A DNA stretch of 36,095 bases from Bacteroidota bacterium. Its GTDB lineage: Bacteria > Bacteroidota > Bacteroidia > Chitinophagales > Chitinophagaceae. Each line of letters begins with the position of its first letter. The stretch's first letter is position 1. Under the pieces are notes generated by a model. It ran no database searches and was not told the DNA's origin. It saw nothing but the letters and a program-made list of their open reading frames with translations. Shown here in pieces: positions 8,169 to 17,228 of the stretch. The translations under genes and the position numbers were made by a program. The stretch is from positions 1 through 36,095 of the forward strand of contig RDXK01000104.1 of the NCBI GenBank assembly GCA_004292605.1, in the 5' to 3' direction.

Positions 8169-8603
8169 TTAAAATTTTTCTCTCATTCTTGGAGCCTGAC
8201 GTTCACCACCATTCATTTTTCTGAGCTGTTGGCGCTGTTCTAACTCCTTTTTCAAAGCATCTTTAAAATTTCGCTCCATTGTGTAAATTCTATTTACTCG
8301 AGCGTCATCGTTCAATACCTTTTTAAAATCCAATTTAAAACGTTTCCTTACTTCTAAAGCTTTTTCTTCAAAGGCTAATTCATCCTGCAAATGATCTTTG
8401 CGGTGTTGTTTTAGCTCAGTGGAATAAGAATTATAAACCGGCCAAAAGCGTTGGGCTTCGTCTGGTGTTAAATTCAACTCTTTTGAAATAAAGGCAATTT
8501 TAAGAGCTTCTATTTTGTTTTGCCTATCAGTGTTTCCTGATTGTGCATTGCAAATGTAGATACTTATTACAAATAAAAAAACAGAACTTAAAAAATGTTT
8601 CAT
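8169..8603 (-). CDS. Periplasmic Spy/LTxxQ-like protein (ECF cassette 1)
   Basis: Signal peptide MKHFLSSVFLFVISIYICNAQ; helical LNLTPDEAQRFWPVYNSY...; start at ATG 8603 avoids overlap with the upstream gene. Confidence 0.65.
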   Translation of the reverse strand: MKHFLSSVFLFVISIYICNAQSGNTDRQNKIEALKIAFISKELNLTPDEAQRFWPVYNSYSTELKQHRKDHLQDELAFEEKALEVRKRFKLDFKKVLNDDARVNRIYTMERNFKDALKKELEQRQQLRKMNGGERQAPRMREKF

Positions 8604-8616
8604 AATTAATATAAAA

Positions 8617-9303
8617 TTAAATCTCTTTAATGTTTTTTTCAGCCGCTTCCATTTCTTGCAAATATTGCTGAATTTCTTCATCGCTAATCATCTCAAAACT
8701 ATGGTCGGCATCTTCTGTAGTATTTTCCTGTACCGCTGTATTGGTAAGTAAATGCACTACATCGTTATGGTTTAAATACTGCTGAATTTCTTCGTCACTC
8801 ACTTGTTCTATACCTTGTGTACTAGCTAAATTTTCTACATTTTCCGTACGGCTGTAAAATATAATAGCAGTACTAAATAAGCCCGCTATCAATACCGCAG
8901 CAGCCGCCCATTTTAACCAACTTTGTTTGGAAAAAGCAACTAATTTACTCTTAGGTTTTGCCACCGTTAAAGGCTGTATATTTTCAAAATACTGAGCCGG
9001 TACATGGTAAGGCATTTGCTTGGTAGCTTGTGCAAGTGTAGGTAAATGGGTTTCCACTTCAGTACCACTTTCGCTAAAGCGAATGGCTTCTAAAATTTGA
9101 GTAGGTAATTGTTCAAAATAATTAGCAGGTGCTTGAAAACTTGCACCTTCCGCCGCTACTTTCATTTTGCTATGCAGCAATATTCTATCTGCCAACTGTG
9201 GAAAATAACCTTCTTCCACGGTAAAAGCGTTGGCTATACCGCTAGCTAACAACGGGTATTGAAGCTCGGTTAATTCGTTTTGTATGGTAGAATTCGGTTT
9301 CAT
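8617..9303 (-). CDS. Putative anti-sigma factor-like single-TM protein with a repeated SDEEIQQYL motif
   Basis: One TM (WLKWAAAAVLIAGLFSTAIIFYS); located directly after the ECF sigma gene; two SDEEIQQYL repeats after the TM. Confidence 0.6.
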   Translation of the reverse strand: MKPNSTIQNELTELQYPLLASGIANAFTVEEGYFPQLADRILLHSKMKVAAEGASFQAPANYFEQLPTQILEAIRFSESGTEVETHLPTLAQATKQMPYHVPAQYFENIQPLTVAKPKSKLVAFSKQSWLKWAAAAVLIAGLFSTAIIFYSRTENVENLASTQGIEQVSDEEIQQYLNHNDVVHLLTNTAVQENTTEDADHSFEMISDEEIQQYLQEMEAAEKNIKEI

Positions 9304-9337
9304 ACTATTGTTAAAGACTGTTAAAACGGAAAATGGT

Positions 9338-9883
9338 TTAATGATTTCTAATAAACTCCTCTATTTTTTTTGCCGCATGATGGTAACTTGCTTTTAACGC
9401 TCCCTCGCTGGTTTCTAAAATTTCACTCATTTTTTCGTACGGCATTTCATCAAAATACCGAAGGTTAAAAACCAGTTTTTGCTTATCGGGCAATTGCTGT
9501 ATAGCCAATTGTAGTTTCCATTCCAGCTTGTTGGCATCAAAAAAACTATCGGCCTTTACCTTATTGGTCATGGTTTCTGCCACATCATCCCAGGTACTTG
9601 TAGCGGTTCGTTTTTGCTTTTCTAAAAAAGTTAAACTTTCGTTGGTGGCTATACGGTACAGCCAGGTGTAAAGCTGACTATCCTCTCTAAAATTGGCCAA
9701 ACTTTTCCAAACCTTTATCATCAAGTTTTGCAAAACATCATTGGCATCCTCATGTTCCACCACCATACGCCGTATATGCCAGTACAGTTTTTCCTGGTAC
9801 TTTTTTATTATTTGCGTAAAAGCCTGTTCACGGGTGGCTTCATTGGCAAATGCCATTAGTAATTCTTTATCATCAGCATGCAT
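9338..9883 (-). CDS. ECF-type RNA polymerase sigma factor
   Basis: Region 2 DANDVLQNLMIKVWKSLANFREDSQLYTWLYRIATNESLTFLEKQKR; region 4 QLPDKQKLVFNLRYFDEMPYEKMSEILETSEGALKASYHHAAKKI. Confidence 0.93.
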   Translation of the reverse strand: MHADDKELLMAFANEATREQAFTQIIKKYQEKLYWHIRRMVVEHEDANDVLQNLMIKVWKSLANFREDSQLYTWLYRIATNESLTFLEKQKRTATSTWDDVAETMTNKVKADSFFDANKLEWKLQLAIQQLPDKQKLVFNLRYFDEMPYEKMSEILETSEGALKASYHHAAKKIEEFIRNH

Positions 9884-14028: not shown

Positions 14029-14907
14029 TTACCAATTGCTTAACCGTACACCAATTACGTAAGGTGTTTGGTCTAATCCAGTTCTATCGGCTTTGTGTAA
14101 ATTATTAAAGCTGTAGCTGCCGTATAAACGTACCGGGCCTAAACCTAATTCAGCAATGGCAGCAAAACGCCAAGGTTCTAAATTCATGGTGCCTCTGTCT
14201 TTTACTTTGCCACGCTCATTACTTACTTGCTTGTTACGGGCTGCTATTAAATAACCTGCACTTACACCTACACTTGCACTAAGGCCACGGCGTTTGCTAG
14301 GGTCTAAATTAAAGTTTAGCATTACAGGTACAGTTAAATATCCGGCGTATAATTTGTTTTTGCTAAAGCTAATACTATCGTTATGCACAAAGGGTTGTGG
14401 GTTATTTCTAAAGCTAATATTAGTAGAGTAGCGGAAGTTATACATTTCTAAACCTAAGCCATATTTCAAGTTTACTTTGCTTTTATATAGGCTGCGACGC
14501 TGCATAAAAAACCAAAGGTTTACGTTGGTAGATTTTGCATTATTCAGGCGAAAACTATTTTGGTTTACAGGCGTACCATTGGGGAAGGTTCTAAAATATC
14601 CTACGCTTTGTGCAGCAGCGTAGTTAGTACGGTCTACCACATTGGCAAAGCCAAGATCCAGTATCCACCAGTTGGTACTTACTTCCTTCACCACACGACG
14701 GTTACTTTTACCTACCGATATGGTAAACTGTTTGTCATCGGTTTTGGTTACGGTACTATTGCCACCATCTTTTTGTTTTTTGATGATTACAAAGTTGCCC
14801 ACACGTATAGTATCTGGTTCATTTTTTTTGGTAGAATCGCTGGTGTTTTGGGCGTTTAAGTTTAGGCAATACAATGCACTTACTGTTACAAGTAAAAGAG
14901 ATTTCAT
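14029..14907 (-). CDS. Outer membrane beta-barrel protein (PorT-like) of ECF cassette 2
   Basis: Signal peptide; alternating beta strands, KYGLGLEMYNFRY, YLTVPVMLNFNLDPSKRRGLSASVGVSAGYLIAARNKQ, C-terminal PYVIGVRLSNW. Confidence 0.7.
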   Translation of the reverse strand: MKSLLLVTVSALYCLNLNAQNTSDSTKKNEPDTIRVGNFVIIKKQKDGGNSTVTKTDDKQFTISVGKSNRRVVKEVSTNWWILDLGFANVVDRTNYAAAQSVGYFRTFPNGTPVNQNSFRLNNAKSTNVNLWFFMQRRSLYKSKVNLKYGLGLEMYNFRYSTNISFRNNPQPFVHNDSISFSKNKLYAGYLTVPVMLNFNLDPSKRRGLSASVGVSAGYLIAARNKQVSNERGKVKDRGTMNLEPWRFAAIAELGLGPVRLYGSYSFNNLHKADRTGLDQTPYVIGVRLSNW

Positions 14908-14921
14908 ACAATAAAATTTAG

Positions 14922-16043
14922 TTATTTAACGGTTTTGTTCTTGGGGTCTATTTCAAAATTAGCAACCTGTATAGGTTCGTTACCAATGCTAGGTTTATTG
15001 GCAGGCCTTCCAATTCCTAAAATGTTTCCGGCACGTTTTAGAAGCGATTTTACTTTTGTTTTATTCAGTTCTAATGCTCCTACATACATGCTGTTATCCT
15101 CATCGGTATTTACTATGTTATACGCCCCACTGTTAGAAATGTTACTGGCGGTTACTAATTTTTTTTCATTATTTATTTCTAGTTCGTTCGCCTCTAACAA
15201 ACGCACTTTTTGCATAGCTGTTTCCATGCTAGCATCGGCTAAATCATCTGTAGCAGCATTGGTTAGTGGGCTCTCTGTGGCGGCCAACTCGGTATTGGTA
15301 GCTGCATAGTTGGTAGTAACCGGTATAGGCTTTGGTGCTACAGTGCTTGTTTTTGCGTTACGCTTATCTATGGTAGGTGTTACCACTGCTACCACCGTTT
15401 CCTTACTAGTATTTTGGGTATTAGCAGGGTTGGTAGCTGGTTTTATGTTGGTATTCGACTCCGCTTTGGTTTCTTTAGTTATTGCCACTGCCTTGGTACC
15501 ACCCTGCGTAGTTTTATCGCTGGCTAAATATTGATAGCCTTGTACTAAACAAATACCTACCACCGCTGCGGCCATACTAAAACGTAGTAAAAATGGTATT
15601 ACACGGGTATTTTTTTCTTCGCCACGTAATAGCTGTTTTTTGTAGGGATAAACGATTTTTTCGGCTACCAATTTCGTTTTGTTATACGCTATAAAACTGG
15701 CTTTATAGGCCGGCTCGGTTTCTACAAATTGCTCCACCGCTAGCTTTTCCTCGGTAGATAATTCACCATCTACATAAGCTGCAAAAAACTGTGTATAGTT
15801 TTCAGCGTTGATCAATGGTTCTTTACTTAATAAACTCGCTTTGAAATTTTCTGGCAGGCTCAGTTGCTCATCGCCCAAGGCATCGGGCTGTAAGTACACT
15901 TGTTGCAATAGTTCGTACTCCTGCTGTGCAAACGGATTTTGCTGTATAAACGCCCATACCACGGCTTGCTCCTCGGCCGACAATTCATTGTCTAGCAGCA
16001 GCAGCAAATATGTTTCGTAGTTATGTTCGTTAATAGTTATCAT
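14922..16043 (-). CDS. Putative anti-sigma factor-like membrane protein with a duplicated N-terminal domain
   Basis: Downstream of ECF sigma; NYETYLLLLLDNELSAEE and NYTQFFAAYVDGELSTEE repeats; TM FLLRFSMAAAVVGICLVQGYQYLA. Confidence 0.65.
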   Translation of the reverse strand: MITINEHNYETYLLLLLDNELSAEEQAVVWAFIQQNPFAQQEYELLQQVYLQPDALGDEQLSLPENFKASLLSKEPLINAENYTQFFAAYVDGELSTEEKLAVEQFVETEPAYKASFIAYNKTKLVAEKIVYPYKKQLLRGEEKNTRVIPFLLRFSMAAAVVGICLVQGYQYLASDKTTQGGTKAVAITKETKAESNTNIKPATNPANTQNTSKETVVAVVTPTIDKRNAKTSTVAPKPIPVTTNYAATNTELAATESPLTNAATDDLADASMETAMQKVRLLEANELEINNEKKLVTASNISNSGAYNIVNTDEDNSMYVGALELNKTKVKSLLKRAGNILGIGRPANKPSIGNEPIQVANFEIDPKNKTVK

Positions 16044-16050
16044 GTAATAT

Positions 16051-16536
16051 TTATAGTACGTTTTCTCTTTTCACAATAAAGTTTTTCAAAATTGTACGTG
16101 CCCTGTGTAGGTATACTTTCACTTGGCTTTCGCTTAGGTTCATTATTTCGCCTATTTCTTGGTAATTATAGCCTTCATAATCTTTCAGCATCACTAAACT
16201 GCGTTGCGTTTCGTTTAGCTGGTTCAGTGCTAACTGTAAGGTTTTTTTCAATTGAGCGGAAGGCTGTGCTGTAGTACCATCTAGATGTGTAAAATCGTCT
16301 TGAATTACGGTTCGCTTTGCTTTTCGCGTATGATCAATCATTTGATTATACGCTATAGTAAATAGAAACGATTTTGCCGTACTGGCATCTACCGTTTCTC
16401 GGTTTCGCCATAATTTTTCAAAAGCGGTTTGTACCACATCCTTCGCATCCTCTTTATGACGGAGATTTTTTACAATAAAACGAAACACACCATCGGCATG
16501 GGCGTGTACACATTCGTTGTATTGTTGTTCTGTCAT
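16051..16536 (-). CDS. ECF-type RNA polymerase sigma factor
   Basis: HKEDAKDVVQTAFEKLWRNRETVDASTAKSFLFTIAYNQMIDHTRKAKR; LNETQRSLVMLKDYEGYNYQEIGEIMNLSESQVKVYLHRARTILKN. Confidence 0.94.
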   Translation of the reverse strand: MTEQQYNECVHAHADGVFRFIVKNLRHKEDAKDVVQTAFEKLWRNRETVDASTAKSFLFTIAYNQMIDHTRKAKRTVIQDDFTHLDGTTAQPSAQLKKTLQLALNQLNETQRSLVMLKDYEGYNYQEIGEIMNLSESQVKVYLHRARTILKNFIVKRENVL

Positions 16537-16556
16537 ATTACAATTACTGTATCTGT

Positions 16557-16592
16557 TACGTAATACTACGTTTAATGTTACAGTTTGTTACA
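16557..16592 (-). promoter_or_regulatory. Two overlapping candidate ECF promoters, TGTAAC-N16-CGTA, offset by 10 bp
   Basis: Plus GTTACA 16587-16592 / TACG 16567-16570 and GTTACA 16577-16582 / TACG 16557-16560, each with exactly 16 nt between; upstream of the ECF sigma ATG at 16536. Confidence 0.6.
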
Positions 16593-16676
16593 AGGTGTTA
16601 ACATTTTTTTTGCATTTGTACTAAATCCAACCTTCTTCGTACTGCGTAACTAATGGTATAAAAATTAAAATTAGTT

Positions 16677-17228
16677 ATGAAAAAAGTATTCAAAAGCGTA
16701 TTTGCCCTAGCCTTAGCCGTAGTAACCACAGCCGGTATTGCCCAAGAAAAAACAGTAATGGTAGGCGGTGCCGCTATGTACCCAAGTAAAAACATCGTGG
16801 AAAATGCTGTAAACAGTAAGGACCATACCACATTGGTAGCTGCTGTGAAAGCTGCCGGATTGGTAGAAACTTTACAAAGTGCTGGTCCGTTTACTGTATT
16901 TGCACCTGTGAACGATGCATTTGCTAAACTACCTGCAGGTACTGTAGAAACTTTATTGAAGCCAGAAAACAAAGCAAAATTGGCTGGCGTACTTACTTAC
17001 CACGTAGTAGCTGGTAAAATTAACAGTGGCGACTTGGTAAAATTAATCAAAGAAAATGGCGGAACATTTACTGCTAAAACCGTAGCTGGTGGCGAATTAC
17101 AGTTTACCTTAAAAGGCAAAAATGTATTGGTGAAAGATGCGAATGGTGGCGTAGCTACTGTAACTATAGCCGATGTAAACCAAAGCAACGGTGTAATTCA
17201 TGTAATTAATAAAGTATTGTTACCATAA
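16677..17228 (+). CDS. Secreted fasciclin (FAS1) domain protein
   Basis: [78 protein letters not shown]. Confidence 0.95.

Follow-up and report, generated by a model that had tools for sequence, protein, structure and literature searches.

A doubled ECF-type promoter motif in front of a conserved sigma factor gene cluster of Chitinophagaceae

The hallmarks of ECF sigma factors include promoters with AAC and CGT boxes, a co-transcribed anti-sigma factor, and autoregulation (PMC8103513). In the DNA analysed here, a stretch of 36,095 nucleotides from a member of the Chitinophagaceae (contig RDXK01000104.1 of assembly GCA_004292605.1; hereafter the window), the region 5' of an ECF sigma gene carries the motif TGTAAC-N16-CGTA twice, in overlapping copies that are 10 bp apart. 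Is this region a promoter of the sigma gene, which other genes would it serve, and what is the meaning of the second copy?

The sigma gene cluster and its motif copies

The genes around the motif are the following:

16051-16536, minus strand: ECF sigma factor gene, 161 aa (Pfam Sigma70_r2 and r4_2; TIGR02937)
14922-16043, minus strand: anti-sigma-like gene downstream of the sigma gene, 373 aa, with a zf-HC2-like N-terminal part
14029-14907, minus strand: outer-membrane beta-barrel gene (Pfam OMP_b-brl_2), third of the conserved cluster
16677-17228, plus strand: fasciclin-domain gene (Pfam Fasciclin), the divergent neighbour

The product of 16051-16536 is an ECF sigma factor, i.e., a short protein in which Pfam finds sigma regions 2 and 4 only (Sigma70_r2 at residues 10-76 and r4_2 at residues 100-148 of 161). 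It scores 83.3 bits against TIGR02937 (cut-off 42.9), and its start codon is conserved in orthologues. The 373-aa protein is a putative anti-sigma factor, judging from its position and a weak Pfam match to zf-HC2 (25.0 bits at a cut-off of 22.2), with one likely membrane span near residues 148-172 (assigned by eye). Homologues of this protein are present in 108 of 110 sigma loci and those of the beta-barrel protein in 98 of the 110, some of these loci being cut short.

Two side observations concern these gene families. In its N-terminal part, the anti-sigma-like protein contains an internal repeat, the two segments of which begin around residues 4 and 78 (local score 67; 500 shuffles gave at most 49). 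The repeat gives the impression that a helical unit of the anti-sigma type was duplicated. Elsewhere in the window, a second, unrelated ECF sigma gene (9338-9883, minus strand, within 8169-9883) is followed downstream by two genes without identity, one of which is a possible anti-sigma candidate by position.

The sequence elements that matter for the promoter are these:

16567-16592, minus strand: promoter copy A, exact match, with the -35 box TGTAAC at 16587-16592 and the -10 box CGTA at 16567-16570; TGTAACAAACTGTAACATTAAACGTA
16557-16582, minus strand: promoter copy B, exact match, with the -35 box TGTAAC at 16577-16582 and the -10 box CGTA at 16557-16560; TGTAACATTAAACGTAGTATTACGTA
16596-16605, plus strand: third 10-bp unit TGTTAACATT, without a CGT partner at N16; promoter-matrix score -11.7
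15121-15146, minus strand: possible internal promoter in the anti-sigma gene, AGTAAC-N16-CGTATAAC, ca. 220 nt 5' of the beta-barrel gene

A pattern search found both minus-strand copies with their 10-bp offset exactly where the initial annotation had placed them, and the three plus-strand 10-bp units described at 16576-16605 are likewise present. Copies A and B are the only zero-mismatch occurrences of TGTAAC-N16-CGTA in the whole window. The third unit was rejected as a third promoter due to its lack of a -10 partner at N16 and its negative matrix score in that register.

Conservation of the promoter and its candidate targets

The initial annotation had proposed an ECF-type promoter and pointed to orthologous sigma genes as the place where the motif should recur. 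We examined 150 nt of upstream DNA at 110 orthologous loci, 106 of them distinct, and this proposal was borne out: 100 of the 106 distinct upstream regions contain GTAAC-N16/17-CGT, or 99 of 105 without the window's own, and one of the six exceptions has a full match further upstream than these 150 nt (locus L012 of genome G027). The spacer is N16 in 87 of the 99 orthologue sites and N17 in the other 12. While GTAAC and CGT are fixed in the 87 N16 sites by the definition of the search, the surrounding bases were free to vary and are nevertheless conserved, with a T 5' of GTAAC in 86 sites and an A 3' of CGT in 84. Downstream of CGTA, position 3 is an A in 86 sites, and position 4 is usually a C (63 sites) or else a T (20 sites). 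Conserved boxes and flanks at orthologues are the signature expected for an autoregulated ECF sigma factor (PMC8103513), and on these sequence comparisons the motif is a genuine promoter signature of the ECF type. What had been a guess from a single sequence has thereby become a promoter consensus from ca. 100 orthologues of an uncharacterised Bacteroidota ECF sigma family. The likeness to SigW/SigX/SigM promoters that had been drawn at the outset holds for the boxes and for nothing beyond them.

Scored with the orthologue matrix, copies B (16.8) and A (11.9) both fall below the family median of 29.5. The top score in the window (18.9) belongs to the internal site in the anti-sigma gene (region 15110-15149), which is also found in G001, the sole other genome of the genus that was compared, in the same reading frame; its presence there may be explained by coding conservation. 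A full match at a comparable position occurs in genome G006, in a different reading frame.

Which other genes carry the motif? The genome-wide scan for TGTAAC-N16-CGTA by which the initial annotation had hoped to define a regulon gave 10 exact matches in the window's own genome, most of them inside coding frames, compared to 12 for a reversed control pattern. Because the bare pattern is not enriched over its control, it cannot define a regulon, and the extended -10 region is needed. We therefore searched 150 family genomes with the extended motif TGTAACWW-N14-CGTAHHAC and obtained 82 matches, compared to 35 with the reversed pattern as a control. Of these matches, 79 were placed: 40 are located 5' of the sigma gene, 14 are located 5' of genes for secreted proteins of the DUF2807 type, 12 fall within open frames, and the remaining 13 are of other kinds; the latter two classes hold plausible targets, so the 14 DUF2807 genes may be an undercount. 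In the window's own genome, two extended matches (on contigs C71 and C256) precede two of its three DUF2807 genes, and the third has no good motif match nearby. The DUF2807 label derives from Pfam for five proteins, three of which belong either to the 14 or to the window's genome and its closest relatives, and from phmmer similarity for the rest. DUF2807 proteins adopt the Toastrack fold (DUF2807/DUF4097/DUF2154) of Lia/PSP envelope-stress systems (PMC11237479), and their recurrence as targets fits an envelope-stress sigma factor. The targets of the motif thus point to an envelope-stress regulon and would tie this sigma factor to proteins whose role is poorly known outside of Lia/PSP-type systems.

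Several further matches were noted in passing. In genome G004, close matches lie before the gene of an ABC-transporter ATPase and that of an FtsX/MacB-like permease, which was named by eye (loci L122 and L156). Family motif matches at three other loci (L224, L232, and L238) precede genes for similar small proteins of ca. 140-150 aa that share IKLSALW and YGDYFELYVP-like stretches and may be a further recurrent target. A bare TGTAAC-N16-CGTACAGC (L117; genome G000, contig C195) lies ca. 107 nt 5' of a gene whose product, small and secreted, has Gly/Trp/Asn-rich repeats and matches no Pfam family.

What these comparisons show directly is that the motif exists, that orthologues conserve it, how the genes are ordered, and which targets recur. 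We consider it likely, at a probability of roughly 0.8, that this DNA serves as the autoregulatory promoter of an operon of ECF sigma, anti-sigma, and outer-membrane protein genes that is conserved in Chitinophagaceae-type Bacteroidota. This reading is supported by the motif at 99/105 orthologues, the joint retention of sigma and anti-sigma-like genes (108/110), the excess of the extended motif over its control (82 versus 35), and its positions before sigma genes (40/79), DUF2807 genes (14), and two of the three DUF2807 genes of this genome. The low scores of both copies relative to the family median, the lack of enrichment of the bare motif, and the weak assignment of the anti-sigma protein count against it. 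In such an operon, the anti-sigma protein would release the sigma factor, presumably on envelope stress, and RNA polymerase with this sigma factor would bind TGTAAC-N16-CGTA and amplify expression of its own operon, i.e., the sigma gene probably switches itself on by positive autoregulation. The same form of the polymerase would also switch on the genes of secreted DUF2807 proteins.

Possible origin and use of the second copy

While the mechanism outlined above is ordinary, the doubling of the promoter is unusual and lineage-specific. Two overlapping sites are found at no other orthologue, a second site in the relatives scores 3.6 at best (compared to 11.9 for copy A), and G001 has one site. 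A tandem search that allowed up to two mismatches in 399 genomes of the family and 399 of the order (overlapping sets with ca. 680 distinct genomes) found a perfect match only in this genome; all others had two mismatches each and were about as frequent as control matches. The doubling is therefore real but confined to this lineage, and we rejected the tandem as a conserved trait given that the orthologues examined are single-site and the exact tandem is unique among these ca. 680 genomes. Of the tandem autoregulated start sites suggested in the initial annotation, the ECF promoter stands, but their doubling is limited to this one genome.

Copy B is the orthologous, ancestral site. Outside the core, 20 of its 40 bases are identical to those at the one G001 site, compared to 11 of 40 for copy A, and a pairwise alignment also pairs copy B with the G001 site. 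A MAFFT multiple alignment instead set copy A against the site of the relatives, but we favor the pairwise alignment and the non-core identity. Copy A is an extra, weaker, overlapping match restricted to this genome, probably a recent addition that offers a second register facing the same side of the helix. The polymerase would be unable to occupy both copies simultaneously, and copy A may either add a weaker start 10 nt upstream or simply be tolerated.

That copy A has no effect and arose beside a working copy B by short-repeat slippage or by chance has, in our view, even odds. Its restriction to one genome, its low matrix score, and the resemblance of the -35 region to a 10-bp tandem duplication are all in line with such an origin. 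However, if only the -35 region had been duplicated, this would not explain why a CGTA lies at N16 from the added -35 box. Simulations with a first-order Markov model also put the probability that another exact core falls within 150 nt on that strand at only ca. 1.3e-4, though short-repeat slippage could raise it.

This low chance probability favors the view that the sigma factor uses both copies, as active promoters that overlap and have predicted starts 10 nt apart, which we regard as possible but would bet against. In both, the -35 and -10 cores are complete and separated by N16, as in most orthologues, and the start codon is 21 or 31 nt away, inside the family range of 16-92 nt. Neither copy is ideal, with one G in the extended -10 region of each: in copy A directly 3' of CGTA, where it is absent from every N16 orthologue, and in copy B at the last extended -10 position. 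A second register might offset the weakened extended -10 of each copy, or it might provide two leader lengths, which we estimate at roughly 12 and 22 nt. However, no relative has kept two sites, copy A has the weakest extended -10 region, and copy B may suffice alone given that the same G is tolerated at its position in 2 of 12 N17 orthologue sites. As an overlapping copy that is specific to this species, copy A amounts to a small natural experiment on promoter duplication inside a likely positive feedback loop.

It is very improbable that the three phased TGTTAC-like units instead act as an operator through which one regulator would control the divergent fasciclin gene as well, as had also been suggested: the plus-strand units do recur every 10 bp and are overlapped by a loose primary-sigma-like box (TGCATTTG at 16611, TTG at 16585), but the fasciclin gene adjoins the sigma gene in this genus only (among 110 sigma loci), no plus-strand match in the window faces it, the repeats are absent in G001 despite a divergent fasciclin gene there, the third unit has no -10 box, and what the family conserves is the -35/-10 pair with its spacer, not the repeats. 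The fasciclin gene is probably not a target of the motif.

Comparison with known systems

The best-scoring specific model for the sigma protein of the window is the GFO_1088/PG0214 family of ECF sigma factors (NCBIfam NF058625), where its 107.3 bits stay below the curated cut-off of 130. In the open-access literature searched, we found no description of the motif or of DUF2807 proteins as ECF targets. The most far-reaching interpretation would be an apparently undescribed module of sigma, anti-sigma, and beta-barrel proteins, conserved in Chitinophagaceae and their relatives, that controls secreted DUF2807 (Toastrack) proteins via TGTAAC-N16-CGTA promoters with an extended -10, the second register having evolved in this species to tune its feedback; taken as a whole, we consider this unlikely.

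The autoregulated operon that we favor resembles canonical autoregulated ECF promoters in its boxes, their spacing, its position before the sigma gene, and the putative anti-sigma gene downstream, but differs from them in that a second copy overlaps at a 10-bp offset and that autoregulation is a prediction here (PMC8103513). Within the Bacteroidota, start-site mapping in Flavobacterium psychrophilum revealed SM6 promoters with a conserved CGT -10 box, one of which lies before an ECF sigma/anti-sigma pair (PMC9723704). The likeness to these promoters that we noted concerns the -10 box and this placement; the SM6 targets include type IX secretion genes, whereas DUF2807 genes are the recurrent targets here. 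Lia/PSP systems share Toastrack-fold proteins in a setting of envelope stress, and some of them have an operonically linked sigma factor (PMC11237479); in contrast, the ECF sigma factor described here has a promoter motif of its own, and its candidate DUF2807 targets are unlinked to it.
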